This document shows positions 18,758-45,005 of a DNA stretch of 64,000 nucleotides, piece by piece (the first letter of the stretch is position 1; each line of letters starts with the position of its first letter). The notes below the pieces were generated by a model, which saw nothing but the letters and a program-made list of their open reading frames with translations, was not told the DNA's origin and did no database searches. This stretch comes from a virus, in the IMG/VR virus record IMGVR_UViG_3300021440_000014, positions 1-64,000 of that record; one strand, given 5' to 3'. The position numbers and the translations under genes were made by a program.

Positions 18758-19818
18758 TGAATAAAGATCAAGCCATAATTTCATCAAAGAAGTTGCTTTT
18801 AGAATCAACTTCTCTTTCCCCTTCTTCTTTAATCACATTGTTTGAAATGGACATTTCTGACTTAGCTTTTGATAAAGGAATTATAGGAGAGATAACAGAA
18901 TTTAATGAAGAAGATAGAATCTTTAGGTTCCATAATAATATACCTTTAATTTCTAATCAAATAGTTTGGAAAGGTAAAACTTTCTATGGATTGCCAGTTA
19001 AGGCAGAAGGATTCGAAATAAATGGAAGAGGAACCTTGCCAACGCCAAAATTATCCATATCAACTAATGAAGAAGGAGTTCCGTTCCTATCTAAATTAAA
19101 AGTCCAAATCAATAGACTTGGTGATCTAACAGGTATAAAAGTTACAAGAATAAGAACTTTTTATAAATATTTGGATGCAATCAATTTCGAGAATAGCGAA
19201 AATCCAAACGCAGATCCTTATGTAGAATTTCCAAGAGACGTATTTTATGTAGACAGAAAAACCATAGAAAATAAAAATACGATAGAATTTGAGTTGGCAT
19301 CGATTTTAGATGTGGAGGGAATTAAGCTTCCAGCGAGAATCGTTGTATCAAATAGATGCACTTGGCAGTATAGGGGCCAAGGATGCTTATACGAATCAGA
19401 GGCCAATAGAAATGTTGAGGTTCATGGACCAGAAAATAAAAGTAGACTTCCTTCTTCCGCCCCTCCTGTGGCTACTGAAAAGGGGGATTTAATTTCTGAA
19501 CTATTACCAGATGGAACAAGTTTAAACTATAGAGGAAAGCACGATAAAAATCTTACTTACAACATTGGCGATTATGTCTACATTGAAAAAAATGGTATAA
19601 AATACTATTTTGTCGCGCATACTTTAGTTCCAGAGAATACTTTTCCTCCAAATGGAAAATATTGGATTCAGGACGGTTGCAGTAAGTTAGTTAATAATGG
19701 ATGTAAGTATAGATGGGGAGTTATTGGAGGAACTGCCGCGCCGGGAAGAGCAAACGGAAACCCTCACAATGGATGTCTACCGTTCGGCGGTTTCTCCGCA
19801 GTTAGTAAGGTTAGGTAA
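18757..19818 (+). CDS. Minor tail protein L-like (Fe-S tail-tip protein)
   Basis: Matches phage lambda gpL, a tail-tip ring protein that in lambda carries an iron-sulfur cluster. The 353-residue protein ends with the diagnostic cysteine set: SNRCTWQYRGQGC, then DGCSKLVNNGCKYRWG, then HNGCLPFGGFSAV. The N-terminal region is a beta-rich gpL core. Starts in the upstream stop (TAATG) and ends the same way into the K-like gene, so translation is coupled. Position between M and K is as in lambda. An insertion of ~90 residues between the two cysteine pairs contains another W/Y-rich module (YNIGDYVYIEKNGIKYY) similar to the carbohydrate-type pattern in the M proteins. Confidence 0.8.
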   Translation: MNKDQAIISSKKLLLESTSLSPSSLITLFEMDISDLAFDKGIIGEITEFNEEDRIFRFHNNIPLISNQIVWKGKTFYGLPVKAEGFEINGRGTLPTPKLSISTNEEGVPFLSKLKVQINRLGDLTGIKVTRIRTFYKYLDAINFENSENPNADPYVEFPRDVFYVDRKTIENKNTIEFELASILDVEGIKLPARIVVSNRCTWQYRGQGCLYESEANRNVEVHGPENKSRLPSSAPPVATEKGDLISELLPDGTSLNYRGKHDKNLTYNIGDYVYIEKNGIKYYFVAHTLVPENTFPPNGKYWIQDGCSKLVNNGCKYRWGVIGGTAAPGRANGNPHNGCLPFGGFSAVSKVR

Positions 19819-20561
19819 TGATAAGCGAAATAAATAAGAAAATTATAAAAGAACACGCTTTAGAGGACTGCTCTAAAGAGTGCTGTGGACTTATTTATTC
19901 TAATGGAGAGAATGGTCAGTCCGTATTTAAAAGTAGGAACATATCTTCTCAGCCTGAAAATTTCTTTGAAATAGATCCAAAAGACTATCTTAAAGCCTCA
20001 CTAGAGGGAAAAGTTATAGGTTTTTACCATAGCCATTTCGGAGAACATGCTAATTCTTTTACAGATTTTGATATTTTAAATTGCGAAAGATTTAAAATGT
20101 TCGGTGTCATTTACGATATAAGGACGGATTCATTCTCTTACTATTCTCCATCTGGTTATAAGCTTCCATACACGGAAAGAGAGTATGTCATAGGTGGAAT
20201 AGACTGTTTTTCTCTTGTTAGGGATTTTTACAAAAATGAACTTAATATAGAAATAACAGACCTTGAAACGAAGTATAGGTATATAGAACACAAACCGGAA
20301 CATCCAGATAATGTTGGCTGTTTAAATATACTACCGGAACATTTTAAAAATAATAATTTTATAGAAGTTAAAGACCTGAAAGAAAACGATATCATTTTGA
20401 TGAATAGTGATAAAATTTTATCCCCAATTCATTGTTCTATTTATAGGGGGAATAATTATATTTTACATCATCCGTTTGGCGCAAAATCAAGAATAGAAAG
20501 AATAAGAAGTTGGCACACAAAATATACAACTCACAAATTTAGACATAAGAGCATGTTATGA
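19818..20561 (+). CDS. Tail assembly protein K-like (JAMM + NlpC/P60 peptidase)
   Basis: A 247-residue protein with two peptidase domains in lambda gpK order. The N-terminal JAMM/MPN domain shows SKECCGLIYS and the metal motif GFYHSHFGEHANSFTDFD. The C-terminal NlpC/P60 domain shows the catalytic Cys in GGIDCFSLVRDFY and the His in SPIHCSIY, followed by YILHHPFG. In lambda, gpK assists tail-tip assembly, and NlpC/P60 domains cut peptidoglycan stems, which would help DNA entry. It overlaps the I-like gene by ATGA. The assignment is firm from both domain motifs and context. Confidence 0.85.
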   Translation: MISEINKKIIKEHALEDCSKECCGLIYSNGENGQSVFKSRNISSQPENFFEIDPKDYLKASLEGKVIGFYHSHFGEHANSFTDFDILNCERFKMFGVIYDIRTDSFSYYSPSGYKLPYTEREYVIGGIDCFSLVRDFYKNELNIEITDLETKYRYIEHKPEHPDNVGCLNILPEHFKNNNFIEVKDLKENDIILMNSDKILSPIHCSIYRGNNYILHHPFGAKSRIERIRSWHTKYTTHKFRHKSML

Positions 20562-21211
20562 AAAAGTTAACAAATATAAAGCTTCATGGGATATTAGGCG
20601 AAGAGGTTGGGATAAAAGAATGTAATCTTTCGATATCTTCTGTTTCAGAAGCTATCAGAGCATTAGAGGCTTTAACAAAGAATAAGCTTTATAAATTTTT
20701 TAGGGATAAAGACTCGGAAGGAATTGCCTATAAGGTTTTAATTAACGGAAGGGAAGCAGAGGTCGAAAACTTAAAAGAAGATGATCTTGATAGAATTAAA
20801 AACAGTGAGCTATGCATGAATTTTAATGATTTAAAAAGTATAGATATAGTCCCCGTTATTCAGGGGTCAGGGAAAGCGGGATCTATAGGAGCAATAGTTT
20901 TAGGTGTCATATTAATAATAGTTGGAGCCTATCTCTCTGCTTTTGGTGGTGCGGCCCTAATTGGCGCAGGTATAGGTTTAATTGTTGGCGGCGTCATGTA
21001 TCTTCTCTCTAGTCCTCCCAAAATAGACGATTTTAGAGAAGTTAAAGGCGGGGGAAGAACTTCTTATCTGTTCAGTGGCCCTCAAAACACAACTAGAGAA
21101 GGTGGGCCTGTTCCCGTAGGATACGGAAGAATGATTGTAGGAAGTCAAGTAATATCTGCTTCTTACGAAGTGTCACATGCTAACGCAGATTATAATCCAT
21201 TAACATCATAA
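20558..21211 (+). CDS. Tail assembly protein I-like
   Basis: A 217-residue protein matching lambda gpI. It has an N-terminal ubiquitin-like beta-grasp region (TNIKLHGILGEEVG...SVSEAIRALEAL) and a glycine/alanine-rich hydrophobic stretch at about 110-150 (AIVLGVILIIVGAYLSAFGG). The C-terminal segment GPVPVGYGRMIVGSQVISAS is typical of the family. It sits between K-like and J-like genes with stop/start overlaps on both sides. In lambda the protein is needed to start tail-tip assembly and is not found in the finished tail. The hydrophobic part may insert transiently in a membrane; that is inference. Confidence 0.8.
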   Translation: MKKLTNIKLHGILGEEVGIKECNLSISSVSEAIRALEALTKNKLYKFFRDKDSEGIAYKVLINGREAEVENLKEDDLDRIKNSELCMNFNDLKSIDIVPVIQGSGKAGSIGAIVLGVILIIVGAYLSAFGGAALIGAGIGLIVGGVMYLLSSPPKIDDFREVKGGGRTSYLFSGPQNTTREGGPVPVGYGRMIVGSQVISASYEVSHANADYNPLTS

Positions 21212-24200
21212 TGAGCGACGAAATTAAATTTTTCATAAAAGGTGCCGGTGGCTCACAACCCGAACAACCTAAAGCAAGAATTCCTGTAGAAGCCAGAGAG
21301 GGTATAAGCGGGCAATTTATAGAAAGCGGAAATCTTAGCGTTCCGGTTGATAGAGTTGTTTCTCTTACTCAGATTAGAACTTTAGACTTAATCTCCGAAG
21401 GCGAACTAGAAGGTCTTGTTTCGGGTGAGTATTCTTATGTTGGGTATCCGGGTGAAATTGGATATAGAAGTGCAGTTTTCAAGCCTTTTCAAAGTAAAGT
21501 AATTGGTGGTAAGTCAATACCTTATCTCAGATCTATTTACTGGAACGAAACTCCAGTGGTGGATAAAGATAATTTATTTAACTTCCAGCAGATAGATGTA
21601 ACCTATTCTGCCGGAACTCCAAATGGAAGCTCTTCTGTGGGGATTGGAGATGAGCTAACAATAAGTAGGAACATTCAGGAAAGATTGAGAGGCCCAAACT
21701 CAATACTAGACGCGAAAAATAAACAGCAAGCAATAGGAGAAGCAGAACAATTTGCTAAATACTATAGGATTCTAAATAAAGACTGTAAAGGAGCTATCGT
21801 TAATGTAAGAGTCAACGCTCTTTCTCAAACAATAGTAGGTGGAACTAAAGCTGGTGATACGGCAGCTTCATCTATATTTTATAGAATTTATTATAAACCA
21901 ATATTCAATAAAGCAGGAACAATATCAGCAGAAAATGTAGGCCCAGAAGATCAAGCGGGATACATCGAAGGCAAAGAAGAGATAATAAGAGGCAAAATTA
22001 GTTACGGATACATTAGATCTACAAGAATAACTTTTGATGAGGCTTATTTCCAAGATCCAACTTTTATAGGATGGGCAATTAAAGTATTCAGACTCACTCC
22101 AGATTCTCTTCAGGGAACTTTAAGAAATCAAACCTACATTGATAGCATAACTGAAATTTATGGAAACTCTTTCTGCTATCCAAACTCAGCTATAGTTTCT
22201 CAGAAATTCAGCGCAGAATACTTCAATCAAATCCCAGCAAGAGCATTTGACGTAAGGCTTTTAAAAGTAAAAATTCCTTCAAACTATGACCCAATAACTA
22301 AAACGTATGAAGGAATATGGGATGGGACTTGGAAGTCGGACGAGTATGGCAATGATGGGTTATTTTGGACGGATAATCCGGCATGGTGTTTTTACGACAT
22401 CCTAACTAATAGCAGATATGGGCTAGGCAAGTATATCTCTAGCTCTTTAGTCGATAAATGGACGCTTTACCAAATCTCTCAATATTGCGACACAATGGTT
22501 CCAGATGGGGTAGGCGGCGTCGAACCAAGGTTTACCTGCAACATGATTATTACTAGCAGGGAAGAAGCCTATAGGGTTCTGAGCGACATGGCAAGCATAT
22601 TTAGAGCTATCCTATATTATCAAGGTGGATCAATATACACTTCGATGGATATAGAGAAAGACTCTATCTATCAGTTTTCCAATTCTAACGTAGCAGAAGG
22701 CAATTTTAATTATTCTTCTAGCAGTAAAAGAGTAAGGCATTCGGTAGCTATAGTAAGGTATAATGACAAAACGAATTTTTATTTGCCAGCAATAGAATAC
22801 GTAGAAGATACTGAAGCCATCAAAAAGTATGGATATAGAGAGCTAGAGGTAGCCGCTTTTGGCTGCACAAGTAGGGGTCAAGCTATCAGGTTCGGAAGAT
22901 GGGCATTACTTAGCGAATCTCTTGAAACCGAAACCGTATCCTTCGATGCGGGCCTTGAATCATGTTATCTTAAACCGGGGGATATTTTTAGAGTATCAGA
23001 CTACTATAAAACAAATTCAAGAAGAGGCGGAAGAATTTATGATGCATATAAAAGTGGGCAAAGTTCAGTAGTTCTTTTGGACGACATAGTAACAGGGTTC
23101 AAAGATAGCTCTACATATAAATTAGCAATAACTTCTCCTTCTTACAGTTTCGATCCAACACTTGTTGAAGGGATTACAAGCGACGACATTTCAAACATAA
23201 GAAAAAATCAAGTCCAATTAATAACTTTTTCTGGTGGAGACGTTTCATCTATAAGCGGCTATTCTAGAGTTATAATTAATGAAGACAATTGGTCCAACCA
23301 AATAGATTTTAAAAATAGATATGTAGTGCCTAGATCAGTATGGACTATAGAAGCTACGGGAAATGATTTGTATGATAATAATTTTAATAATCAATGGGAT
23401 TATTATAGAGTCATAAAAATTGAAGAAAAAGAAGAGAATCTATTTGGCATAAATGCTCTTCAGTATGATTTATCTAAATATCAAGCCGTAGATTCTGGTC
23501 TTAACTTTGAAAATCAAGTTGTTCAAATCGGTAACGTAAGTGCGCCTGACTCTCTATTTTTAGAGTATGTAGATTTAGAAGGATCTAGTAATCTAAAAGC
23601 TATTAAATACTCTATCTCGAAGACGAACATGGATGGAGTAAACGGATTCCTTGTTTATGCTAAACTTGGAGATTGGGAGTCAGAAGATTTTTCAGAAAGA
23701 TTTACCAACGGTAATATTCCTCAAGTAATACCTCAGACTCCAAACAGCGAGTTTTTAATTAACGTTGCCTCTAATAGTAATCCAAGCGGAAATTTCATTC
23801 CCCTTGAAAATGGAACATACTACTTTAGAGTTTATTCAAGGAATCTTCAAGGTATACCTTCTGAAAATGGGGTTTCTAGTTCCATTTCAGTATTTGATCT
23901 TAATAAATTTCAAGGCTTAAGAATAAGCTCTCTTAGAGTCGAAGGAAATTCAGATGCGTTGTTATCTCAAAAAGCTGAAGATACTATATCCTTTATTTCT
24001 CCGACTTTTAGATGGCAGGCATCTTTAGAAAATGCTCCTTCTACACCCTATACTCTAGGGGATGTATATTACAGAATGACGATTAGGAAATCTACAAGTC
24101 CTAACTCTTCTGCGCCCGCTACATCAGATGAAAGCCCTATCGTTGGAGATCCTTATCAGCCTTCTAGCGTTATATACCACGAAGAAAAAGGGTATAAACC

Positions 24201-25506
24201 GGATGACGTAAATAATCCTAGTTTATCATTCGATTTAATTGAAAATATTTCTGCTTTTACTAAATATTATACAAATCAGCCTCAAGGTCTTACTCCAAGT
24301 GGGGCTATAAGAGATTACGATGTAGTCGTAGAAGCACATCTTCAAGACGGATCTAGTTCGGCTGGAGGCAATATATTCTCTACGGTAAGAGGAGGAAATT
24401 TAGATTCTGAGTATTCTCAAAGCAAAACTAATGGATGGGATATTTTACATGTAAATAATCCAAAAATACCAGCCATACAATTAACGGAGCAAGCAGATTT
24501 GGACTCCTGCCAAATAGCAGCAGTATCAGACCCCACAAGAATATGCACGGAGCAGTGGATTAACTCTAATGGAACCGTAAGTATAGATATTAAGACTAAT
24601 AATCTGCTAGATGATATAGCTGGAGGTTTTATATATAGTTGCAGAGAAATTTTTTCCACAGAAGAAGCTTTAAATGGCAAAAAAGCAAATGGAACGTCTA
24701 TTTACAGAGGAGAATTTTCGGATTTATCTAATCCGTTAAATGCAGCCTCTAATTTGAAAGACATTAAAAATGGATACGTTGCAGTATCTTTTTATGACAA
24801 TTTAGATAAAGCTTTCAGGGATGAAATGCTCAAGGTTAACCCTAAATACAATGACGTATTTATTAGCGGTTTAAATGTTTCTAATGCTGCTGGGGCAAAA
24901 CTTAAATCAATATCTTCTACTCTTGGCAGCTATGTTGCGTGGGGGCAAGTATTTTTTAAAGGAAAGAGAAAAACAGGTTCAACGACCAAATGGGTAATAG
25001 AAGAGTTGTCTTGGTTTGGGCCGGGAATAATAAGTGTTATCGATGACGGCTCTACTCAAAACTACGCAAAAATAAGAATAGGATTAGACTCGGAATTAGT
25101 AGACCAAAATGCAAATACCGCATTTAATATATCTTATACTTATTCTAATACTCCAGTTGGGACAAATACAGTTCCGGTTTTTAAAACAAATAAAAACTTG
25201 CCATTACTTTCAGCAGGGACTTCTCCACATAATAGATTTACTATTGCAGACAATAATTTGCCTATAGAATATATTTCTAAATGGACTAATCCATCAAGCG
25301 TAGAAGATATTCATCATTACAACTTAGAAAATGTTGTTACTATCTTAGAGCTAACAAATGAATACGCTATAGCAAAAATAGATATTCCTCAATTAACTGC
25401 GACTTCCAGCATTTATAATGCGACAACAGAAGCAAAAATATTCATTGGAATAATGCAGTCTTCGGAAGGAAAAACTCTATCAGCGGACATAGGTAAAGAA
25501 TTTTAA
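21211..25506 (+). CDS. Tail tip / central fibre protein J-like (host specificity)
   Basis: A 1,431-residue protein homologous to lambda gpJ, the baseplate hub and receptor-binding fibre. Conserved early blocks: DLISEGELEGLVSGEYSYVG, SIYWNETPVVD, DILTNSRYGLGKYI, and DMASIFRAILYYQGGSIYTS near residues 465-485. Fibronectin-like and Ig-like sections follow, then a long divergent C-terminus, where receptor specificity normally resides. It starts in the I-like stop (TAATG). A small tail gene follows 5 bases downstream. The C-terminal ~550 residues have no recognised adhesin motif, so the receptor is unknown. Confidence 0.85.
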   Translation: MSDEIKFFIKGAGGSQPEQPKARIPVEAREGISGQFIESGNLSVPVDRVVSLTQIRTLDLISEGELEGLVSGEYSYVGYPGEIGYRSAVFKPFQSKVIGGKSIPYLRSIYWNETPVVDKDNLFNFQQIDVTYSAGTPNGSSSVGIGDELTISRNIQERLRGPNSILDAKNKQQAIGEAEQFAKYYRILNKDCKGAIVNVRVNALSQTIVGGTKAGDTAASSIFYRIYYKPIFNKAGTISAENVGPEDQAGYIEGKEEIIRGKISYGYIRSTRITFDEAYFQDPTFIGWAIKVFRLTPDSLQGTLRNQTYIDSITEIYGNSFCYPNSAIVSQKFSAEYFNQIPARAFDVRLLKVKIPSNYDPITKTYEGIWDGTWKSDEYGNDGLFWTDNPAWCFYDILTNSRYGLGKYISSSLVDKWTLYQISQYCDTMVPDGVGGVEPRFTCNMIITSREEAYRVLSDMASIFRAILYYQGGSIYTSMDIEKDSIYQFSNSNVAEGNFNYSSSSKRVRHSVAIVRYNDKTNFYLPAIEYVEDTEAIKKYGYRELEVAAFGCTSRGQAIRFGRWALLSESLETETVSFDAGLESCYLKPGDIFRVSDYYKTNSRRGGRIYDAYKSGQSSVVLLDDIVTGFKDSSTYKLAITSPSYSFDPTLVEGITSDDISNIRKNQVQLITFSGGDVSSISGYSRVIINEDNWSNQIDFKNRYVVPRSVWTIEATGNDLYDNNFNNQWDYYRVIKIEEKEENLFGINALQYDLSKYQAVDSGLNFENQVVQIGNVSAPDSLFLEYVDLEGSSNLKAIKYSISKTNMDGVNGFLVYAKLGDWESEDFSERFTNGNIPQVIPQTPNSEFLINVASNSNPSGNFIPLENGTYYFRVYSRNLQGIPSENGVSSSISVFDLNKFQGLRISSLRVEGNSDALLSQKAEDTISFISPTFRWQASLENAPSTPYTLGDVYYRMTIRKSTSPNSSAPATSDESPIVGDPYQPSSVIYHEEKGYKPDDVNNPSLSFDLIENISAFTKYYTNQPQGLTPSGAIRDYDVVVEAHLQDGSSSAGGNIFSTVRGGNLDSEYSQSKTNGWDILHVNNPKIPAIQLTEQADLDSCQIAAVSDPTRICTEQWINSNGTVSIDIKTNNLLDDIAGGFIYSCREIFSTEEALNGKKANGTSIYRGEFSDLSNPLNAASNLKDIKNGYVAVSFYDNLDKAFRDEMLKVNPKYNDVFISGLNVSNAAGAKLKSISSTLGSYVAWGQVFFKGKRKTGSTTKWVIEELSWFGPGIISVIDDGSTQNYAKIRIGLDSELVDQNANTAFNISYTYSNTPVGTNTVPVFKTNKNLPLLSAGTSPHNRFTIADNNLPIEYISKWTNPSSVEDIHHYNLENVVTILELTNEYAIAKIDIPQLTATSSIYNATTEAKIFIGIMQSSEGKTLSADIGKEF

Positions 25507-25511
25507 AATAT

Positions 25512-26375
25512 ATGAGAGCATCAATACTAAAAAACACAAACAGAGCAGTTTCATCTTCAGAGGAATCTTGGGGATCGCTTAGAGAAAACACAATGGTAAA
25601 ATTTGGAAATGATTCTGAATTCTACAAAATTGGTTCAAGTAAGCAATTCATGTTCATAAAAAACTTTAAGTCAATTAATCAAAATCAAATTCTTATTGAA
25701 GACGATATTGGAATTGCCCTGAACGTTTTAGATACAGTTCAAGTATCCTTTAAGGAATATGAGCTTTTAACCGTTATTAAGGAAGAGAATAGGGGGAGCA
25801 AATATAAAGTGGGAGATTTACTTACTATTGCTGGCGGAATTCCGTCTAAAGACACTCAGACCAATATTGATTATTCTACTAAGTTGGTAGTATCGGAGGT
25901 TGGCGCAGATGGGGAAATATTACAAATAAGACTGGAGCATCCGGGTAAATATATTTGCGCTCCAGAACAGAAATGTAATTTAATTGGCGGGCATGGTAGC
26001 GGAGCGACTGTATTGGCAGATTTCGTAGTATCAGATCATCGATACATTACTGAAAGAACAGTGACGAGAATAGATAAAAATGAAAAAGGAACAATTATTA
26101 CCCTTGACTCCAAGATAGACTCAGCAGTTACAGATGGTAAAATTTCTGTAACTAAATGGGAGCTTTTTATTACGTCTAATTACGCGGGAGAATCAAAATA
26201 TAATGAGCAGATACAATTTATAAGAGATTTCTCGCCAAATTTAGGTATTCCATTTTTATTGAAGGATAATCAATCCCCAGAAGCTATTTACAATTTAGCA
26301 ATATTGAAAATAGACTCTGAGTTTACTAAACTTCAAAATAGGATAAAAGAGCTAGAATCAAGAATTAGGGGATAA
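25512..26375 (+). CDS. Tail-tip accessory protein with C-terminal coiled coil
   Basis: A 287-residue protein of unknown family at the end of the tail-tip operon. The middle holds a beta-rich segment with GGHGSGATVLADFVVSD (common in phage virion proteins with a 'Gh.SGA.v.a' turn). The C-terminus SEFTKLQNRIKELESRIRG is a short coiled coil, suggesting a trimer. It ends tail-to-tail with the tape-measure gene (18-base overlap). Likely a fibre or chaperone for J; that is inferred from position. Confidence 0.5.
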   Translation: MRASILKNTNRAVSSSEESWGSLRENTMVKFGNDSEFYKIGSSKQFMFIKNFKSINQNQILIEDDIGIALNVLDTVQVSFKEYELLTVIKEENRGSKYKVGDLLTIAGGIPSKDTQTNIDYSTKLVVSEVGADGEILQIRLEHPGKYICAPEQKCNLIGGHGSGATVLADFVVSDHRYITERTVTRIDKNEKGTIITLDSKIDSAVTDGKISVTKWELFITSNYAGESKYNEQIQFIRDFSPNLGIPFLLKDNQSPEAIYNLAILKIDSEFTKLQNRIKELESRIRG

Positions 26376-29300
26376 TAGTCCGCCATTTTTCTTTTGCTCT
26401 ATAATAACTTCCACAACTTTCGACTTGACAAGTTCGGCGAATTTCTTGCTGTTTTCTTGATCTTTTCCAGAGCGCGAACCTGAAGAGTCAGAAGATGTTT
26501 TAGATTCTACAGAACCTTCCTTAGACACGTTGACCGTGATGCTAATATTATTAGTTCCACCAGTAACGCTTTGGACTTGATTATTTGAACCTGAATCATT
26601 CTTGCCGTTAGACTTTAAAGATTTAACAGCTTCAGATAGCTCAGATATTACAGAGGATATTTTATCCATGTAATTAGACTCATTGCCATTTGAAGAATAA
26701 GATCCTACATATCCGCCTTCGGCATATTTTCTTCCATTATTTATATTGTTGAAGAAACTTGTTCCGTATTTGTCTACGGCTGATTTTTTAACTACAAATT
26801 CACCCCCAGTTAACATCGCGGGAATTTTATCCGTAGAAGAATTTCCGCCAAATACAGTGCCGCCCCCGGCATATTTTTTAATTATACCTCCATTAGCTCT
26901 GCCTAAACCATTAAAAATTGCTGCTACTTCTGTATCTCCAGAATTGTAAGATGTAGTTCCTCCAAACTTATCTCTTACAATATAGCCATCACTACCTTTT
27001 GTTATAGTAGACCCATCTCCTAGTTTCTTTGTATTAGAAGATGAGCTACCTATTTGACCTAATCCATAGGCACCAACCTGAATACCGGCAGATATATAAG
27101 CAGATCTTAGAGAATTATTTCTCTGCCTATTAAAGTTTCTAAGAGTTAATCTTCTATTTTTATCGTAGTCTTTCCTATCTCCAAGATAACCAATTAATTC
27201 CTGCTCTCTTTCGAACTTTAATCTATTAGCGGGATTATTTTCATCAGTTTGCCCCAAGGCTGATAACTGATTACTTACATTAAAATATCCTCCAGTAGGA
27301 CGTTTAGCATCATTATAAGCGAAAGCATTATTCAATACTATAGAAGATCTGTCCCCTTCAGAGAAACTTCTAGTTACCTGCGCTGCGCCAAAGTCCTGAT
27401 TTCCACGACTCTTCTTAGGCAGTTTAGTTCCATCTCCATATATAGGAGAATTTTTGTTCAACTCATTAAGGTAATCTTCGCCAATTGCTTGCACCGCAGA
27501 TCTTTTTATTACATATTCCCCTTCCGTCAGCATTGCTGGGACATCATCTCTAGTTCCTGACCCGCCTTTAACTCTGCCACCAGAGCTATATCTCATTATC
27601 TTGCCACCCATGTTCTTCTTTTGTGAAGTAGATGAGCTTCCAAAAGCCGAAGCCACGGACTTACCAGCTTCCCCAAGATACGAGAATAGTAAATTAGTAG
27701 ACAAATCTATGCTTAAATCTTGAACTCTTTTAAGAACTGAATTTCCAAAACTTCTAAATGCATCATCAGCGTCTTTAGTTCCATCTGCAAATGATTTAAA
27801 TGCGCTAGAGAACTCTGATTTGATTGTCGCAGCCGTAGTCACGGCTCCATCAGAAATTTCCTTATAATAGTCTTGACTATTGTATGCGGTTAACTCATTT
27901 CCAAATAAGCTCGCAGCTTGAGAAATTTTAAAATCTTTAGACTGTATTGATTTTTCATTTGCCAATCTTAATTGAGCATTATAATCTTTTCCGCTTATAT
28001 CTCCCCTATTATAAGCTTCTTTCGATCTAGCGGCTAAGAACTTTTCAGTTAAAGTAAGTTGTTTCTTAGCTATCTCGATTGCTGATAGCCCATTTCCAAT
28101 GGATTTTTTCTCTAATTTATCTAGCTGATCTCTTAAGTTTTTGGATTCTCTTAAATTTTCCGTGCCATCTTTAGATAATGCGGCCAATCTTGCTGCGCTA
28201 TTAGCTCTATTATCTAGGCTAGAAATAACAGAAGAGTAAGCTTGATTTGCATCGCCATTATCTCCAGTAGCCTGAAATACTGCTTGTTTCCTGAATAAAT
28301 CTTCGCCTATCTTACCAGATTGATCCGAGTTAAGTAATTGGCTCAATAATGAAGCAAATGACTCTCTTGTTCTTCTAGCCGTTAGCCCGCTCGTATCGAA
28401 CTGAATATTCTTTGCTTTTTCAGTTAATGCCTCAGATAATGTTCTTTCTTCACCTGCGCTAGGAGCAGGATTTATATACTTAGAAGAAGTTTGCTGAAGC
28501 GGAACAACGGGCGTATTTGGCGTTCTAATCCCAAATGCATCAAATAATGGGTCGCCAGCTAAAGGATTACTTTTACCTGCTGAAGCGTAAAATGAGATAG
28601 GATCTCCAATGGCTCCCCTAGAGCCGTCATACTTCTCTCCCCTTAACGCTGCTACAAGTTCAGCAACATTTTTAACGCTTACATTAAAACCATTATCGGA
28701 CGAAAGTTTCTGTAATATAGAGTCAAGATTTTGGCTATTTAATTTTATTTCGCTATATAAATTAGAAGACTGTCTTAATATTTCATCTTGTTTAGTTTCG
28801 GTTTTAAACTCATTAGTAAGCTGTTTTCTCGCTATCTCTTCTGGAGAAGCGGGTAGAAGATCATTAGGGAAGTTCTGTTTAATTGTATTGGCTAAATCGC
28901 TAACCAAAGGCTCAAACAAGCTAGTTCCTTGAACGTCAACGCCTAAAGATTGAAGTAATTTTGCGTTTTGGAACTTACCTTGGCCGGAAAGACCGAAATC
29001 TCCAATTTGCGCCCCTAACTCAGAAAGCGTATTTCCAGTAAGGATAGACTGTTTAAAATTAGCAGAGTTGCTTAATATATTTCCTGCGCCCCCGCCAACG
29101 CTTAATTTCTTCTGAAGATCTATCAGATCTATTTCGGCTCTTCTTTTTTCTTCCGACAGAGTTACGAGTTCTTTATTCCTATTTTCTACAGATCCCACTT
29201 GTAGTCCCCTTGAAATACCTAAATTTTTTATTGTAGAATTTAGTTCTTCAAGTAACTTTTTTTGATCCGCCGTAGTTTCCGCAGTTCCATCTGGTCTTAC

Positions 29301-32300
29301 GAGTGGATCTAATTTTACAATACTTTTTTCTAAAAAGCCTTGTAATTTGTCTATCTGTTGAAAAACAGATCCAAAATCTCCAGAGGAAGAAGATTTAGCT
29401 ATAGACTCTTTAAGATCTAATAGTGGGGCGGTAAATTCATTGGCTTTTCTAACTGCTGATTTTCCATCTCCAGTTGCTTCCGTTCCGGTTCCAAAAGCTT
29501 CTTCTATTCTTTTTTTGAGAATAGATAAAGCTCCATTATCAATAGAATCAGAAATTCCAGAAACAAAATTTTGATTGATTTTAGCTATCGAACTTACTCT
29601 TTCTTCTTCTATTTGTCTTCTATCATTCTGGAATCTAAGATTAGTTAAAGTTTTAGGCCCAGCAAAATTTTCCTGTATTTTAGCAAAATTTTCAAATCTT
29701 AAAGAATTAGATTTTTTCTGAAACTCTAAGTTAGCAGTCGCCTCCTCATTAACAGAAGACATTACTGTTTTAAAGTTATTTATTACTTCTATAGTTCTAA
29801 ATAAAGAAGCTGAAAAATCTGATGTAGTTTCTAAAGTTCTTTCTCTCTCAGATTTTCCAAGAGCTTCTCTGTTCACTCTTTTTAAAACCGCATCTCCAGA
29901 TAAGTTTTGTTCTAGAAATCTTTGAAATTTATCTATAAACTCGATTGGGTTTGTTTTAGCTCCTTCTTTTAAACTTTGAATAGCATCAAATTTTTGGGTA
30001 TCTGGTAAATTTGATTTATTTATAAAGTTTTCAAAAGCTTTAACACTGGCTTCTATCGAAGACGCAGGAGAGAGAGGATCAAACTTTTTAAATCCTTCTT
30101 CAATATCTTTTTTGAAATTTACCACTTCCGAAAGAGGAATATTTTGTAAATTTTGACCATTTTTAAATGGAATTTGGTTTATAAATCTATTAAAACTTTC
30201 AGAACTAGATACGTTTTCTCTTGTTCTAAATTTTAAATCCTGTAATACTCCGAGGTCATAAGAAGGATCTGCGCCAGCACCCAAAATATCAAGAGAGCCA
30301 ACTGAAGTTCTTCTGTTATTTATAGCTTCTTCTAGTCTATCTCTATTTGGAATAGAAAACTTTTCTAATTTATTATTTATGTTTTCTGATCTACCTAATT
30401 TAGAAACATCTTTTTTCGTATTAGAACCAAACTCTACTGCAAAATCTGCGTTTTTCTTTTCAAAAGCTATAGAATCAATAATTTCTTTAACAGCTTCCTG
30501 TAGACCTTTAAAACCTCCAGTAGATAAACCTTGATTAATTTTGCCTCTTTGTTCCAAGGATAGATTACCAAAAATATTTTTTTGCTCTTTTTGTAATTCG
30601 CTTATTTTTTCAGAACTTAAACCCCTACTATTTCTAAGGGAATCTTCTAATTTAATATAATTAGATAGATTTTCAGAATTTTCCCTATAAGAAGTATTTA
30701 TCCTCTCTAAATTCTTTTGTAAATCTGGAAGGTTACTTATAAATGCTTCAAAAATTCTAGGAAATTCAGTTGCTACTCCAATAGCGGCACCAGCCGCTAT
30801 TCCCGGTGCGCCAAATACTGCACCAAGCCCAGCGTAAGACGCAACATTTCCGACTGATTGAGTTAATTGACCAAATCCTCTTTGGTTTTTAGTTTCGTCT
30901 GTAAAAAGCTGAGATCCAATGCCACCCAAAATTGGGGCAGCAAATCCAGCGGCTATAGAAATAGTATTTAATTTGGAATCGCGGCTTTGTTTAGCGGCTT
31001 CGTATCTTTCTCTATTTTCATTTTTTAATTGATTAGCCTTTGTTCTTGTTTCTCCAAAAAAAAGACTTTTTAAAGAACCTGCTGCGTCAATCTTTTCCTG
31101 AAGAATTGCCTCTTCTTCTTTAAGTTTTGCGGTTTTTTTCTCTTGTATTTTTAATTGAGTAAAATACTCCCCCTTCATTTTTCTACTTAAAGGAACTATA
31201 TCATTAATTATTCTGTTTACTTCAGTAAAATCGTCGGAAGTTCCACCAAGTTTCCTTATGTTCTGTTCTATTACATTCTTAAAATTTTCTACGTTTTTCT
31301 TTTTAGATGATACTTCCCCTGTTTTAATTTTATTAGAAAAAGAAGATATCAAATCATTGATTACCTCAGATCCACCTAATTTATTTATAGATGGGTTTCT
31401 GAAAGAGAAATTTTCTTTCAAAAAGAATGAATCGTAACCAGAATTTTGAATTAATTTAGACTTAGAGCCTATTCTTTTAGAAAGTTCTTCAGATTCCAAA
31501 GATTCTCTTTCTTTTTTGCCAGCAAGATAGTTTTGCATTGAAGAAAATTTAATTTCTCCTTTTGGTTCATCAGGGAAAAACCCATAAGCGTTTTTATTAT
31601 AATTAACTGATCTTGTAAGGCTATTTCTTAAGCTTTTTACGCCTTTTGCCGTTAAGCTAAATTCCTCAGATAAATCTTTAATTTTGGAGTCTACATCTTT
31701 GAAGGTAAATGTGTCATTTTTAATTTGAGATTTTAAATCTTCCAAAACTCTTTGGAACTCTTCCCTTTTGGATGCGGGAGTAAAAGGCTTAAAGGTTTCT
31801 GAGCTAGATGCAAAATCCGGGGCATAGTTAGGAATTAACCCATCAGCCGCGCCATGCGTCTTAGGATTTAGCCCTTGGCTCAAAGCCCTATTAATGCCCT
31901 GATTTAATCCAAGTGGCTCATCCTTTGTGTTATATACCCCAAGTCCAGCAGGATTCAGTGGAGATTTAAGAAAAGGAGATGAAGAAGCCTTTATTAAAGA
32001 AGGAGAAACTCCCGCCCCGACTTCTCTACTTACTGCTTTAGAAAGAGATGAATAGTTAGGTATTAATCCTTTTGAGGCCGGAATTAGTCCAGAATCCCTC
32101 AAGTATTTAGTTAAACTTAAGTCGTTTAGACCAACTTCCCTGCTTCTTCCAAATGTTCCATTTTTTACTAGAAATTTTAATTTAGGTTGAGCAAAAGCAT
32201 TAGTAATAGCCTCTGCAACCGATTCAAGTTTATTTACATTTACTATTTTATTGGAAATTTTAGCAAAATCATTTTCTCCTGCAACAGAAATACCAGTTGC

Positions 32301-35300
32301 AGTATTAAGGGTTTTTCCTCCTAGTTGAGAATGAGTTTCATCAAATATTTTAGAAGGGATTCTACTCGTTATATCTAGCTTGTCGTCAAGGAAATGAGAG
32401 TATTCATGAATTAAGGCTCTTGAAGTTTTTCTGGCGGAAATAGACTGAAGATCTTCCTTCATTCTGCCAGAGAGTTGACCGTATCCTCCTTTGAAGCCAA
32501 AATTATCGTCTAGTTTTCCAGCTAAATTATCAAAATTTAAAGTAATTAAATCTGGATCATATACCGCTTTTGTGCTAGAAGATAATTTGCCCTCTATCTT
32601 TCTAAAATCTTTTGCCACGTCTAATTTTGGTGTTGCGCCCACTTTACCAAGAATAAAATTAGAATATTTCTCGAAAGATTCAGTAGAGAGGGCTTTACTT
32701 ATAAATTCATCAGGAGTAAGAGAAAAATTACTATAAGACTTAGGATCTGTCACCAACCTATCTTCTAAATTAATACTGCTAAATAAATTACTCGCGTAAT
32801 TAGGAACTATTCCAGCCGCGCCAAATTGAGATTTCAACTCTTTTAATCTTGATTTAGATAATTTAAATTCTCCGGGATCTATAACGGTCGCCAAGCTTCC
32901 ATTGGCCACCATTGCGGCAAATGTTTGAGAATTTTTATCTCCAAATCCACTTAAGAAATTAGCAGAATTTCTGCTATTAGCTAAAGCAGAAAGCTCCCTG
33001 CTTAATCTATCATTAACAGTAAAATTACTTAAATGAAGATCATCTGGCGTTATCCCATGATTTAAATCGAAATTTTCAAAAGCCTTACCTATGTATGAAG
33101 TTGAAAAAAGTCTAGTTACTGCGTCAGAAGAGTTTTCATGACTCGTTGGATCTTTTATAAACTCTTTATAAATACCTCCTTCAGATAATGAATTATTTAA
33201 AGATTTAAAAATTTTAGGAAATTTTACTCCCGGCAAAGAAATACTTTCGAGATACTTAGAGATTAAGTATTCTTTTTCAATCTCTCTAGGATCTACAAAT
33301 TTTTTAAATTGTTTAAAACCAACTGGAACGCCGCCAATTAGCTGTTTTAAATCTAGGAATCTTGCGTTTTGGCCTATCTCCCCAATTTGCTCTCCTTGTA
33401 TTCTATAATTTGGAACAAGACCAGCCGCAAAATTCTTATATGGATCAAACCCATGAACATCTTCGAAAGCTTTTTTATAGTTCGTGCCAGCTTCACTATT
33501 TTTAGGAGGAAGGATAGCGGGTTGACTCATCCCGAAGTCTTTAACTTGTTCTTTTGAGTTATAAATCACATTTCCCATGCCGGGAACTGACATCCTCTTT
33601 ATAGAACCAGCTTCGTAACCACCTAGCAATGCGCCAACCTTTTCTTTCGTCTCTTCAGGGATTAATCCTCCAGCAGCGGTCTTACCCGGAGAATTTGGCA
33701 ACACTATTTTACCAGCCTTATCAAAGCCTATCTGATTAGATTTCAAGAAATTAGCTGAAGCCTTCGATGTTACAGCGTCTAATCTAGAAATAGCCTCAAG
33801 TCTTTGCTGAGTAAGAGACAATAATGTTCTTTCTACTTCAACTTGAGAAATTGTTTTATTAAGTATTTTTTCCCTTAATCCCGGCTCAAAAGAAAGAGTA
33901 TCTTTCAGTGCCTCGGATATCTGTTTCTGTTGCAGCGCAAATTTATTAAGACCAGCAAAGCTTTTTAATGCGTCTGCCGTAAATTCTGCGAAAGATAACG
34001 CCAATTTACCTACAGCAATAGAGACTATCGCCAGCCCCGGACCAGCAATAAACTCTCCAAGTCCCTTCAAGGCACCATCAGCTATTTGTCTTCCAATTCC
34101 TTTTGACTGTTCGCCAACATCCCCAAATAAAGACTCAACTATTCCCGTCGTGTTTTTTATAACAGGAGCGATGGTAAGATTGCCAACAGTTTCACCTAAC
34201 TGCCTAAATGTCTCTTTACTCTTGTTGAGAACCGAAGCCAAGCTTTTATTATATTCTTCGTTCCTTTTGCTGGCTTCGTTTTGGGACTGAGCGGATTTTT
34301 GAGTGGCTTGATCTACTACGCTGTATTCCTTAGACAAGTCGCCAAGCAAGGCTTTTAAAATGTTAATTTGATAAACGCTACCGACAAGTTCAGCTAAGTA
34401 AGACTGTTGAGAGTCCGAAGCACTATTAAAAGTTCCAGCAAAGTTCTTTAAAATCTCTGACACTGGCAAAATCTGTTGTCCCGCCCCTCTTACTACAGTT
34501 CCCAAACTTTCTAGTTGAGCAATAACTTCTGGTCTTTCTATTCTTGTGAAAATAGTCTTTAAAGCGTTACCAATTACAGCACCACCACGGGCAGTTGTCT
34601 GCTGCGCTGAGGTAACAAAACCTATCAAGCTGTCAATACTAACTCCAGCTTCGGCAGCGGTGCTACCCACACGTTTCAGAGCCTCGGCTAAGTCTTTTGA
34701 GCTAACGGCAAATGCCGCGTCAACATTAGCGAATTTGTTAATTACTTCTGTAGACGTTAATCCAGCCTTTGAAAAGCTGTTAACCGAAGCCGTAAGAGAT
34801 TCTACGCTATCTTCAAGAGATATACCGGCTTGCCTAGATAAAATAGCCGCATCTTTAAGTCTTATAAGGGTTTCTTCCGCACCAAGACCTTGACGTGCTA
34901 ATTCAGTAGCTCCAGCCGCAATTTCAGAAAAAGACTGACCCGTATCTTTAGCTATACTAAAGATTTCGTTTTTAAAATTAGAAAGCTCTTCAGCATTTTG
35001 ATTTAGGAGAGTATTTAATTCAGTAAATGACTTGTTAACTTCTATAGTAGAAGAAACTAAGCTTTTTATGCCCTGAGATACCTGAAATATTAAACCAGCA
35101 GAAGCTCCGAAAGCTATGACACGCGCATTCGCAGCCGCCATAGATTTCGAAAACTCGTCTGTAGAAGAGGTTATTTGACCAAGGGGTCTAGTTAAGGAGC
35201 TTGAATTGAGCCTTCTATTAAATAAATTCTGTATTTTAGACGCACTTTCCTCAGCTTGCCTAAATAAAGGAGAAAAATCTCCACCAACAGATAAATTGTA

Positions 35301-35315
35301 AGTCTCAACTGGCAT
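26358..35315 (-). CDS. Giant tape-measure protein with embedded kinase-like and zincin-like domains
   Basis: A 2,985-residue tail length-determining protein. Residues ~50-330 are the TP901-type tape-measure core (IAKDTGQSFSEIAAGATELA, SRQAGISLEDSVESLTASVN). Four G(L/I)(I/V)PNY linkers lie near residues 632, 832, 1080 and 1157. Between the first two is a protein-kinase-like region: VGFKQFK, DDLHLSNF (residues 758-765) and TVIDPGEF (~810). Between the second and third is a zincin signature HEYSHFLDD (970-978) with a later SVAEAITNAFA. Long helical and coiled-coil segments follow. The C-terminus has two 'PAML..GE.V.K.SAV' motifs. At about 1.5 angstrom per residue it implies a tail of roughly 450 nm. 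Confidence 0.9.
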   Translation of the reverse strand: MPVETYNLSVGGDFSPLFRQAEESASKIQNLFNRRLNSSSLTRPLGQITSSTDEFSKSMAAANARVIAFGASAGLIFQVSQGIKSLVSSTIEVNKSFTELNTLLNQNAEELSNFKNEIFSIAKDTGQSFSEIAAGATELARQGLGAEETLIRLKDAAILSRQAGISLEDSVESLTASVNSFSKAGLTSTEVINKFANVDAAFAVSSKDLAEALKRVGSTAAEAGVSIDSLIGFVTSAQQTTARGGAVIGNALKTIFTRIERPEVIAQLESLGTVVRGAGQQILPVSEILKNFAGTFNSASDSQQSYLAELVGSVYQINILKALLGDLSKEYSVVDQATQKSAQSQNEASKRNEEYNKSLASVLNKSKETFRQLGETVGNLTIAPVIKNTTGIVESLFGDVGEQSKGIGRQIADGALKGLGEFIAGPGLAIVSIAVGKLALSFAEFTADALKSFAGLNKFALQQKQISEALKDTLSFEPGLREKILNKTISQVEVERTLLSLTQQRLEAISRLDAVTSKASANFLKSNQIGFDKAGKIVLPNSPGKTAAGGLIPEETKEKVGALLGGYEAGSIKRMSVPGMGNVIYNSKEQVKDFGMSQPAILPPKNSEAGTNYKKAFEDVHGFDPYKNFAAGLVPNYRIQGEQIGEIGQNARFLDLKQLIGGVPVGFKQFKKFVDPREIEKEYLISKYLESISLPGVKFPKIFKSLNNSLSEGGIYKEFIKDPTSHENSSDAVTRLFSTSYIGKAFENFDLNHGITPDDLHLSNFTVNDRLSRELSALANSRNSANFLSGFGDKNSQTFAAMVANGSLATVIDPGEFKLSKSRLKELKSQFGAAGIVPNYASNLFSSINLEDRLVTDPKSYSNFSLTPDEFISKALSTESFEKYSNFILGKVGATPKLDVAKDFRKIEGKLSSSTKAVYDPDLITLNFDNLAGKLDDNFGFKGGYGQLSGRMKEDLQSISARKTSRALIHEYSHFLDDKLDITSRIPSKIFDETHSQLGGKTLNTATGISVAGENDFAKISNKIVNVNKLESVAEAITNAFAQPKLKFLVKNGTFGRSREVGLNDLSLTKYLRDSGLIPASKGLIPNYSSLSKAVSREVGAGVSPSLIKASSSPFLKSPLNPAGLGVYNTKDEPLGLNQGINRALSQGLNPKTHGAADGLIPNYAPDFASSSETFKPFTPASKREEFQRVLEDLKSQIKNDTFTFKDVDSKIKDLSEEFSLTAKGVKSLRNSLTRSVNYNKNAYGFFPDEPKGEIKFSSMQNYLAGKKERESLESEELSKRIGSKSKLIQNSGYDSFFLKENFSFRNPSINKLGGSEVINDLISSFSNKIKTGEVSSKKKNVENFKNVIEQNIRKLGGTSDDFTEVNRIINDIVPLSRKMKGEYFTQLKIQEKKTAKLKEEEAILQEKIDAAGSLKSLFFGETRTKANQLKNENRERYEAAKQSRDSKLNTISIAAGFAAPILGGIGSQLFTDETKNQRGFGQLTQSVGNVASYAGLGAVFGAPGIAAGAAIGVATEFPRIFEAFISNLPDLQKNLERINTSYRENSENLSNYIKLEDSLRNSRGLSSEKISELQKEQKNIFGNLSLEQRGKINQGLSTGGFKGLQEAVKEIIDSIAFEKKNADFAVEFGSNTKKDVSKLGRSENINNKLEKFSIPNRDRLEEAINNRRTSVGSLDILGAGADPSYDLGVLQDLKFRTRENVSSSESFNRFINQIPFKNGQNLQNIPLSEVVNFKKDIEEGFKKFDPLSPASSIEASVKAFENFINKSNLPDTQKFDAIQSLKEGAKTNPIEFIDKFQRFLEQNLSGDAVLKRVNREALGKSERERTLETTSDFSASLFRTIEVINNFKTVMSSVNEEATANLEFQKKSNSLRFENFAKIQENFAGPKTLTNLRFQNDRRQIEEERVSSIAKINQNFVSGISDSIDNGALSILKKRIEEAFGTGTEATGDGKSAVRKANEFTAPLLDLKESIAKSSSSGDFGSVFQQIDKLQGFLEKSIVKLDPLVRPDGTAETTADQKKLLEELNSTIKNLGISRGLQVGSVENRNKELVTLSEEKRRAEIDLIDLQKKLSVGGGAGNILSNSANFKQSILTGNTLSELGAQIGDFGLSGQGKFQNAKLLQSLGVDVQGTSLFEPLVSDLANTIKQNFPNDLLPASPEEIARKQLTNEFKTETKQDEILRQSSNLYSEIKLNSQNLDSILQKLSSDNGFNVSVKNVAELVAALRGEKYDGSRGAIGDPISFYASAGKSNPLAGDPLFDAFGIRTPNTPVVPLQQTSSKYINPAPSAGEERTLSEALTEKAKNIQFDTSGLTARRTRESFASLLSQLLNSDQSGKIGEDLFRKQAVFQATGDNGDANQAYSSVISSLDNRANSAARLAALSKDGTENLRESKNLRDQLDKLEKKSIGNGLSAIEIAKKQLTLTEKFLAARSKEAYNRGDISGKDYNAQLRLANEKSIQSKDFKISQAASLFGNELTAYNSQDYYKEISDGAVTTAATIKSEFSSAFKSFADGTKDADDAFRSFGNSVLKRVQDLSIDLSTNLLFSYLGEAGKSVASAFGSSSTSQKKNMGGKIMRYSSGGRVKGGSGTRDDVPAMLTEGEYVIKRSAVQAIGEDYLNELNKNSPIYGDGTKLPKKSRGNQDFGAAQVTRSFSEGDRSSIVLNNAFAYNDAKRPTGGYFNVSNQLSALGQTDENNPANRLKFEREQELIGYLGDRKDYDKNRRLTLRNFNRQRNNSLRSAYISAGIQVGAYGLGQIGSSSSNTKKLGDGSTITKGSDGYIVRDKFGGTTSYNSGDTEVAAIFNGLGRANGGIIKKYAGGGTVFGGNSSTDKIPAMLTGGEFVVKKSAVDKYGTSFFNNINNGRKYAEGGYVGSYSSNGNESNYMDKISSVISELSEAVKSLKSNGKNDSGSNNQVQSVTGGTNNISITVNVSKEGSVESKTSSDSSGSRSGKDQENSKKFAELVKSKVVEVIIEQKKNGGLLSPNS

Positions 35316-43091: not shown

Positions 43092-45005
43092 CTAATCTAT
43101 TTTCTTGAAGCCGGGACCGATATCTCTTCTTCTAGAGCTATTTCCAGAATAAGACGCTTTTGGATCTGCTACGAATGGATTAGTTCCATAATAATATCTA
43201 TATCCTGCGGGAATCCTTGTTGGTTCATTTTCGGTAGGCTTATATGGATCGTATGGTGGCCACTGTAAGCTACCAAAGAATGTAGGCTTTGAAGTTAAAT
43301 AAAAGCTATTTGGAATTGTTTTATCATAAGTATGAACTACATTTTTTTCATCCCAAACAATTGCAGATCCGGGAGCTAAATCGCTGGCTCTATAACTCCA
43401 ATTACCCCATCTTATCATTGTTTCTCTTACGTTAGTATCGTATTCAAGAGATTCTCTTGGATTACGAGAATCATCTCCTGAACCATTTATTATATACCCT
43501 AATTTAAAAAGCGTAGTATAAACGTTGTCGTAAGGGAAATATTTTAGATTATAACACTCGTAAATAGATTCTGGTGCCCCTCCCGTTGTTCCTCCTAAAA
43601 TATTACCAACAAACATCCAATAATGATTTCTTCTACAAACATCTACGGTTATCGTCTGGGCGTCTATAAATTCATTCCCTCTATCTTGAGAAAATATTCT
43701 ATTTCTAAGAATAGTAAAATGAGAGCTTGTCCCCCAATATTCGTCTGCTCTTATACCTGATGCTGAAAAATTTCCTTCTATTAAATTCATAAAAGGATGT
43801 CCTCCGTGCATCAAATTACTAAATCTTCTAATAATATCTGAATCTCCTTCTCCTAATCTCCACCAAATATTTGTAACGAAATTATAGCTAACTACATTTC
43901 CAGAAGTGCATCCTTCAAAACATACTGTTCCTATCGTTAGTTTTTCTGATATATTATCCGTAATCAATAAAGCAGAAGTATGAGGGCCAAGAAAAATAGG
44001 ATATGCCCTGTCTGAAGTATAATGTAAATCTCTTTCGTTTCCGACCGGAACTCCTCCATAGAGATAGCAACCGCTTATTTCTGACCATAAAGCGTTATAA
44101 ACCCAGAAAGCCCTTCTATGTGCTCCTATCAATTTCACATTTTTTACCCAACAATTAACCCATCCAAAAACCGTAATAGTATCAAACGCATCTGAGTCTA
44201 GGTTATCAAGAGTTAAATTTTCTAAACCAGCCTCCTCTACCATTGGCCCAATTCTTACCGCTTGAGGTTGGTTTGTATAAGAAAAATACAAAGGAGGATC
44301 TATTTGAACCGTCGTTGAATTAACTACGTTAGTTATTTTGACTATTTGCCCACATGGTCTAGTCCCAGATTCTCTACCCAACCAAGTAGCATACTGATTA
44401 GCTCCTCCTCCTCCTGTTCCGGCTGATGTAAAATTCGAAACAGGAAGAATAGCACCCTCATTCGTTTTAGTGTCTACTATGAGATATTGACCTACTGACC
44501 AATTATGTGTTGTAGAAGTAGTTAAATTAACGGAATCTTTTGTTGGAGACACTAAATCAAAAGCTGGATAAGTTGACCAAGAGAAATCAAAACCCATATC
44601 AAAATTAACCATTCTTTTTGATAAAAGTTTAATTGGAGTAATTACTCCTGTTTCTGCATTCGTTGAATAGGAAGATATATAAAAAAGATCTGGAGAAACC
44701 CCTTTAATAATAGTTTCATACATGTTTTCTCCTTTTAAAGTTACATAACTTGGGATTTTTAAAGCTTCATCTATTAAATATGTTCCATTTTTTAAAAGAA
44801 CAATTTTATTTGGTGGGCAGTTACTTATAGCTGCTTGTATTTGTTTCGTTGTAGCCCCCGGATTTATAATAGTATAAATTTCTCTGTCCGTATTCACCGT
44901 AGATCTAAGACCCGGATTCCAGTTTATTCTTAAATTATCTGGAATAATAGTAGAAAAACAGTTATGAATAAATAGGAAAAAAAGTAAAAAATAAATTGAT
45001 TTCAT
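43092..45005 (-). CDS. Secreted right-handed beta-helix (pectate-lyase-like) protein, copy 1
   Basis: A 637-residue protein with a Sec signal peptide (MKSIYFLLFFLFIHNCFST). The mature start is IIPDNLRINWNPGLR, then an 'ATTKQIQAAISNCPPNKIV' pattern and a pectate-lyase-type parallel beta-helix with many short turns. Fold members cut or bind polysaccharide. It is a paralogue of the proteins at 46890 and 48767, sharing 'YWGTSSHFT.LRNRI', 'F.GPH..A.LITDN' and 'WGNW.YR'. Last in an operon with a jelly-roll and a fibre-like protein, each with a signal peptide. Catalytic residues cannot be assigned by eye. Exported depolymerase or secreted adhesin are both possible. Confidence 0.7.
   Translation of the reverse strand: MKSIYFLLFFLFIHNCFSTIIPDNLRINWNPGLRSTVNTDREIYTIINPGATTKQIQAAISNCPPNKIVLLKNGTYLIDEALKIPSYVTLKGENMYETIIKGVSPDLFYISSYSTNAETGVITPIKLLSKRMVNFDMGFDFSWSTYPAFDLVSPTKDSVNLTTSTTHNWSVGQYLIVDTKTNEGAILPVSNFTSAGTGGGGANQYATWLGRESGTRPCGQIVKITNVVNSTTVQIDPPLYFSYTNQPQAVRIGPMVEEAGLENLTLDNLDSDAFDTITVFGWVNCWVKNVKLIGAHRRAFWVYNALWSEISGCYLYGGVPVGNERDLHYTSDRAYPIFLGPHTSALLITDNISEKLTIGTVCFEGCTSGNVVSYNFVTNIWWRLGEGDSDIIRRFSNLMHGGHPFMNLIEGNFSASGIRADEYWGTSSHFTILRNRIFSQDRGNEFIDAQTITVDVCRRNHYWMFVGNILGGTTGGAPESIYECYNLKYFPYDNVYTTLFKLGYIINGSGDDSRNPRESLEYDTNVRETMIRWGNWSYRASDLAPGSAIVWDEKNVVHTYDKTIPNSFYLTSKPTFFGSLQWPPYDPYKPTENEPTRIPAGYRYYYGTNPFVADPKASYSGNSSRRRDIGPGFKKID

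Follow-up and report, generated by a model that had tools for sequence, protein, structure and literature searches.

The DNA described here, called the window throughout, is a stretch of 64,000 nucleotides (positions 1 to 64,000) from the 172-kb IMG/VR virus record IMGVR_UViG_3300021440_000014. An open reading frame (ORF) on its minus strand, at 26358-35315, is by its domain matches the tape measure of a siphophage, and this protein probably doubles as a carrier of exchangeable effector cassettes, ejected together with it and set between copies of a short linker peptide. Its own cargo appears to be a minimal kinase-fold domain (cassette K) followed by a probable zincin (cassette Z). Little is known about the non-DNA material that tailed phages bring into the cell. 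Should swappable cassettes be what tape measures hold, hundreds of these proteins from metagenomes could be read as lists of effectors acting early in infection, and the linker would be a simple rule for finding them. The kinase family and a dominant family A (invariant E, D, K, K) offer immediate biochemical targets. The parts of the protein, with positions in amino acids (aa), are as follows.

26358..35315, minus strand: tail tape measure protein, 2985 aa (Pfam PhageMin_Tail, E 2.5e-23, aa 122-311; phrog_4211, E 3e-55)
34383..34952, minus strand: PhageMin_Tail domain, aa 122-311, conserved backbone (Pfam match)
33996..34052, minus strand: hydrophobic, possibly membrane-spanning segment ahead of the cargo, aa 422-440
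33651..33668, minus strand: degenerate first linker, aa 550-555, reading GLIPEE (GFIPNF in relatives)
33423..33650, minus strand: conserved spacer of about 75 aa ahead of the cargo, aa 556-631
33405..33422, minus strand: linker GLVPNY, aa 632-637
32814..33404, minus strand: cassette K, kinase-fold domain, aa 638-834 (homologue conservation and predicted fold)
32796..32813, minus strand: linker GIVPNY, aa 835-840
32070..32795, minus strand: cassette Z, aa 841-1082, a domain that is probably zincin-like (motif only)
32052..32069, minus strand: linker GLIPNY, aa 1083-1088
31842..32051, minus strand: conserved spacer of 70 aa beyond the cargo, aa 1089-1158, containing GLGVYNTKDEP
31824..31841, minus strand: linker GLIPNY, aa 1159-1164
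30789..30971, minus strand: hydrophobic segments beyond the cargo, aa 1449-1467 and aa 1491-1509

A preliminary description of this DNA had counted four copies of G[LI][IV]PNY; four do exist and the first was correctly placed at aa 632, but those given as 832, 1080 and 1157 begin at 835, 1083 and 1159, 2-3 residues away. The other motifs it named were all located (VGFKQFK at aa 665, DDLHLSNF at 758, VIDPGEF at 811, HEYSHFLDD at 970 and SVAEAITNAFA at 1032). The additional GLIPEE at aa 550 is a decayed copy of the linker. Two or more linkers arose in none of 20,000 shuffles of the tape measure, and the frequencies in the same shuffles were 0.16% for HExxH, 0.01% for HExxHxxD and 2.7% for D-x-H-x-x-N; the linkers and HExxH are not explained by chance from composition. 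The protein has eight histidines, every one of them at aa 621-1154, in or beside the cargo region, and it contains neither cysteine nor tryptophan.

The same architecture recurs in a large group of tape measures. A DNA pattern search of viral contigs for A[AG]G[LF]IPN[YF]A returned 101 stretches, and 90 ORFs besides the window's own have at least two linkers. Most of them align to the window over aa 1-637 (about 30-49% identity) and again near aa 1080-1223, not between. A second set was retrieved with the tape measure N-terminus alone, free of any linker criterion, as the best 80 of at least 586 relatives. All 82 complete tape measures examined in this N-terminus-based set have 2-11 linkers; four is the number in half of these proteins, and the usual places are near aa 540, 622, 890 and 965. 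A hydrophobic segment lies ahead of the cargo in all 82 and beyond it in 78. Exactly one linker copy is seen in only 12 of 1465 ORFs, and 659 contexts give the consensus [AS]-x-G-[FYL]-[IV]-P-N-[FY]-A. In cultured phages, matches are limited to the N-terminus, at 25-28% identity in SPbeta-like and lactococcal phages, with no spacer and no cargo.

Common to the group is a frame consisting of the conserved N-terminus and short spacers, about 75 aa before the cargo and about 70 aa after it. Linkers also border short spacers that hold no cargo, and they are kept as a peptide whatever the cassettes next to them. Both observations suit an uncleaved linker serving as a docking or threading site for a tail assembly chaperone or the tube wall, the cargo remaining one chain, a reading that comes only a little short of an even chance. 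Within one gene the synonymous positions of the linker codons vary freely, and it is therefore the peptide, not the DNA, that is conserved. The coincidence of cassette boundaries with linkers might suggest DNA-level recombination sites whose coding capacity is incidental, but with so many synonymous differences among the linker codons of a single gene, and the peptide kept, this idea was rejected and is hardly credible.

What lies between the linkers is highly varied. A set of 277 unique inter-linker segments of at least 95 aa each, from about 146 related tape measures of uncultured viruses, forms 97 BLAST clusters and, after merging with hidden Markov models (HMMs), about 69 families. These include kinase, P-loop, SNase, nucleotidyltransferase-like, GHKL-like and HExxH types, as well as one dominant family without a known fold. 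Comparison of near relatives, designated here by L numbers, reveals exchange: L107 and L071 are 82% identical in the N-terminus and 85% identical in the last spacer, and the three cassettes following A in L107, the kinase included, are unmatched in L071, which holds a different one. The pairs L105/L093 and L160/L161 display the same pattern of swapping, and backbones 71-82% identical hold unrelated cassettes. Identity drops and recovers at the linkers, and these sequence comparisons show whole cassettes, bounded by linkers, to be the units in which cargo is acquired, lost and exchanged. The segments and swaps in related tape measures thus lend strong support to the earlier proposal that linkers mark domain boundaries, and make it far more general than the window alone. 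Two candidates were set aside: L182/L189 is not a swap of unrelated cassettes, the cassette being a diverged homologue, and a "K" label on L070, produced by chained clusters, is not used.

Cassette K is supported, by homologue conservation and modelling, as a kinase-fold domain, with phosphotransfer predicted only. Alone, it has no match in sequence searches of Pfam, PHROG and the PDB, and peptide patterns revealed no close relatives in viral contigs. Homologues, 21-28% identical to the window's copy, are found between linkers in L068/L104, L009/L105, L017/L107, L108/L109, L080 and L106, in a slot that varies across relatives; L106 has the family in two different slots, and L157/L158 contain a more diverged homologue within a longer cassette. 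The L106 ORF, of 3067 aa, has nine linkers and eight inter-linker segments, and its two kinase-family copies differ from one another. The Lys, the alpha-C Glu, the catalytic Asp, the Asn and the Asp of D-x-G are invariant in 9 of 9 K sequences (in the window, Lys 668, Glu 682, DLHLSN 759-764 and IDPG 812-815). Prominent features of the alignment are V-G-x-K, I-x-K-E, D-[LF]-H-x-x-N and D-x-G, along with a Gly-rich region and a Glu, the His of D-[LF]-H-x-x-N being missing in L157, and one family member matches Pkinase at E 0.005. Among four relatives the ratio of non-synonymous to synonymous substitution rates (dN/dS) is 0.14-0.22, which supports purifying selection on the family. Tape measures tolerate length change, and the kinase and zincin segments might accordingly be inert spacers in a length-flexible protein; against this stand catalytic residues that stay invariant at such low identity and the dN/dS values, and the idea is very improbable.

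An AlphaFold2 model of K, built from the family alignment, has a kinase fold (predicted local distance difference test, pLDDT, 78.3; predicted template modelling score, pTM, 0.76). Foldseek comparison with the PDB gave the kinase superfamily throughout among the matches listed (best PRPK, E 1.5e-4), and comparison with BFVD mostly viral kinases among the matches listed; VIA-align gave Z-scores of 9.3 for DAPK1, 8.9 for PRPK, 8.4 for Rio1 and 8.0 for MPH-E and APH. The nearest solved folds are the atypical small kinases Bud32/PRPK and RIO and the APH/MPH phosphotransferases; unlike these, to which it has no sequence match, K has almost no C-lobe after D-x-G. Only about 20 residues follow D-x-G in both sequence and model, so that most of the C-lobe is missing. 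With the kept catalytic positions, the predicted fold and purifying selection, the kinase-like segment of the preliminary description is supported.

A similar reduction is known from polyvalent proteins, which occur in phages and conjugative elements, are thought to enter with the DNA, and count kinases and zincins among their listed domains (Iyer et al., 2017; PMC5512222). Their Kinase-PolyVal domain (PF18762) designates kinases that have lost the C-terminal subdomain (PMC5512222), and like K it is a minimal kinase with the D-L-H-x-x-N...I-D pattern. However, its HMM does not match the K family, and K compared with a profile of 34 Kinase-PolyVal sequences from Bacteroidia genomes gave P 0.015 over 24 columns at DLHxxN, which is not significant, although it was the best of five templates (controls, P 0.12-0.44).

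Cassette Z is quite likely a zincin, going by its motif. HEYSH occupies aa 970-974, the candidate third ligand is E1031 or E1035, and ESVAEAITNAF begins 57 residues past the second His of HEYSHFLDD, which matches the zincin pattern. No homologue of Z was found in viral contigs, cultured phages, the retrieved tape measures or 295 genomes, these last belonging to the class of one metagenome-assembled genome (MAG) that bears a tape measure. Neither Pfam, PHROG and PDB sequence searches with Z alone nor peptide patterns applied to viral contigs for close relatives gave a match, and a scan for HEYxHxxDD yielded 28 viral stretches, none within a linker-type tape measure and all resembling Z only round the motif. 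The closest match overall is to the LPD5 protein of a Moraxella plasmid (E 0.09, 31% across about 145 aa, HExxHxxD aligned), in which LPD5 and LPD1 domains flank the matching region, making it a polyvalent protein. A profile built from 23 relatives of the plasmid protein failed to uphold this weak match, with only P 0.007 over 48 columns against Z and no hmmsearch match. The zincin-like segment proposed earlier therefore stands in part: HEYSHFLDD and the downstream Glu are present, but no homologue was found, and the name stays at the level of the motif.

For polyvalent proteins, processing by zincins has been suggested (PMC5512222), and Z might by the same token be a maturation protease cutting the tape measure at its linkers. 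Yet HExxH occurs in only 5 of the 277 cassettes, the window's included, and linkers are universal in the group. Since nearly all relatives lack HExxH, Z is not a general linker protease, and a part for it in maturation is quite improbable. Unrelated HExxH cassettes are present in L152 and in L157/L158/L160. In the latter three, a single long cassette (aa ~960-1759) joins a GHKL-like ATPase region to HExxH, and L157/L158 add the diverged kinase-family domain.

Two of the remaining cassettes exceed their Pfam cut-offs: SNase in L152, with 24.1 bits against 21, and a cytidyltransferase-related region in L138, with 34.2 bits against 26.7. The GHKL-like ATPase of L158 falls slightly under its own. 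The P-loop family has eight members, and weaker single matches were obtained for GNAT and ParB_N. Candidates for unrelated effector domains within one chain are, in the window, K by its fold and Z by its motif alone; several occur together in some relatives, L152 and L158 among them. Family A, absent from the window, accounts for 148 of the 277 segments, and in most tape measures (95 of 146) it makes up the cargo by itself. Its members (e.g., L180:11879-12670) are about 260-280 aa long with invariant G-x-x-F-E, D, D-x-K and K, except that one diverged member has E-M-K in place of D-x-K. The AlphaFold2 model is confident (pLDDT 86) and matches no PDB fold by Foldseek or VIA. Family A is possibly a nuclease; the PD-(D/E)XK type, considered from the invariant G, F, E, D, K and K, is not claimed, as the PDB profile matches were spurious lectins and no PDB fold matched.

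How might such cargo act? The conserved N-terminal backbone and the spacers of about 70-75 aa frame it, with domains strung between the copies of G-(F/Y/L)-(I/V)-P-N-(F/Y)-A. During infection the tape measure of a phage exits the tail, and it is able to enter the membrane (cited in PMC11126660; PMC13277306); on this basis we infer delivery of the cargo to the host. Host delivery, as suggested in the preliminary description, and cutting at the linkers are both plausible. The tape measure would exit the tail tube as the DNA enters; the cargo, lying between two hydrophobic segments, would reach the host interior or cytoplasm, and its domains would modify host molecules at the onset of infection. 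As the least certain step, the linker peptide may be where one common factor, whether a protease, an assembly chaperone or the tube wall, deals with every cassette in the same way. For the group as a whole, there is about an even chance that in many uncultured, perhaps largely Flavobacteria-infecting siphophages the tape measure is a general delivery chassis, with cassettes exchanged between phages between the repeated peptides and the linker acting as the release or handling site of each.

Several points weigh against an effector carrier. The relatives all come from uncultured viruses, and the proposal is built on sequences and predicted structures; the K model is without the usual C-lobe and its Z-scores of 8-9 are only moderate; the identity of Z is based on the motif alone; and since family A has no recognisable fold, an enzymatic role for most of the cargo is only putative. 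Moreover, a folded 20-kDa domain may not suit the tail lumen unless it is unfolded or at an end.

Tape measures with wall-degrading domains are well established. The cassettes might likewise serve the virion or DNA entry, for instance in opening the cell wall or in the membrane crossing of the tape measure, instead of acting on cytoplasmic targets, and the hydrophobic segments flanking the cargo would fit such a use. However, no wall-degrading enzyme is among the recognised cassettes (kinase, P-loop, SNase, nucleotidyltransferase-like, GHKL-like), and their diversity suits cytoplasmic targets better, which leaves an entry role unlikely.

Carriage of effector cassettes by a tape measure has parallels in known systems. 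Polyvalent proteins likewise combine several unrelated effector-type domains in one polypeptide, and cassette-like variation was noted there, but here the carrier is a tail tape measure, a term never used in that study (PMC5512222), and copies of one peptide linker form the borders of the cassettes. Tme and Sle1, from contractile injection systems, are effectors related to tape measures, and their functional domains vary (PMC11126660; PMC13277306); as in the present group, the effector domain of a tape-measure-like protein differs between relatives; theirs is a C-terminal domain in bacterial injection systems, whereas the phage proteins hold internal segments between linkers, up to ten per protein. 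The exchange of cassettes between phage tape measures can also be likened to the exchange of tips among polymorphic toxins. GFIPNF together with a tape measure was not found in the open-access papers searched. Injected multidomain effectors and tape-measure-like effectors of contractile injection systems are already known; within those papers, a phage tape measure that acts as a chassis for cassettes appears to be new.

As to hosts, nine relatives of the tape measure were found in species genomes, five in Flavobacteriales or Flavobacteriaceae MAG contigs and the other four in Neomarinimicrobiota, Halobacteriovorax, Proteobacteria and Verrucomicrobiales MAGs. Flavobacteria are perhaps the main hosts of the group, a hint only because of possible MAG binning errors. 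In the window itself, a lambda-type tail tip module (18757-25506, plus strand) lies near the tape measure gene.

18757-20561, plus strand: minor tail proteins, phrog_18 and phrog_30 (PHROG matches)
20558-21211, plus strand: tail assembly protein, phrog_32 (PHROG match)
21211-25506, plus strand: gpJ-like protein (gpJ-type Pfam matches)

Given this module, the virus is in all likelihood a siphophage, and its host Gram-negative. The tip genes converge on the minus-strand tape measure gene, an unusual arrangement for a tail module. Further along, at 43092-45005, 46890-48698 and 48767-50596, three proteins of about 600 aa have a common pectate-lyase-like N-terminal domain (Pfam Pect-lyase_RHGA_epim) and are likely paralogous tail spikes or fibres.

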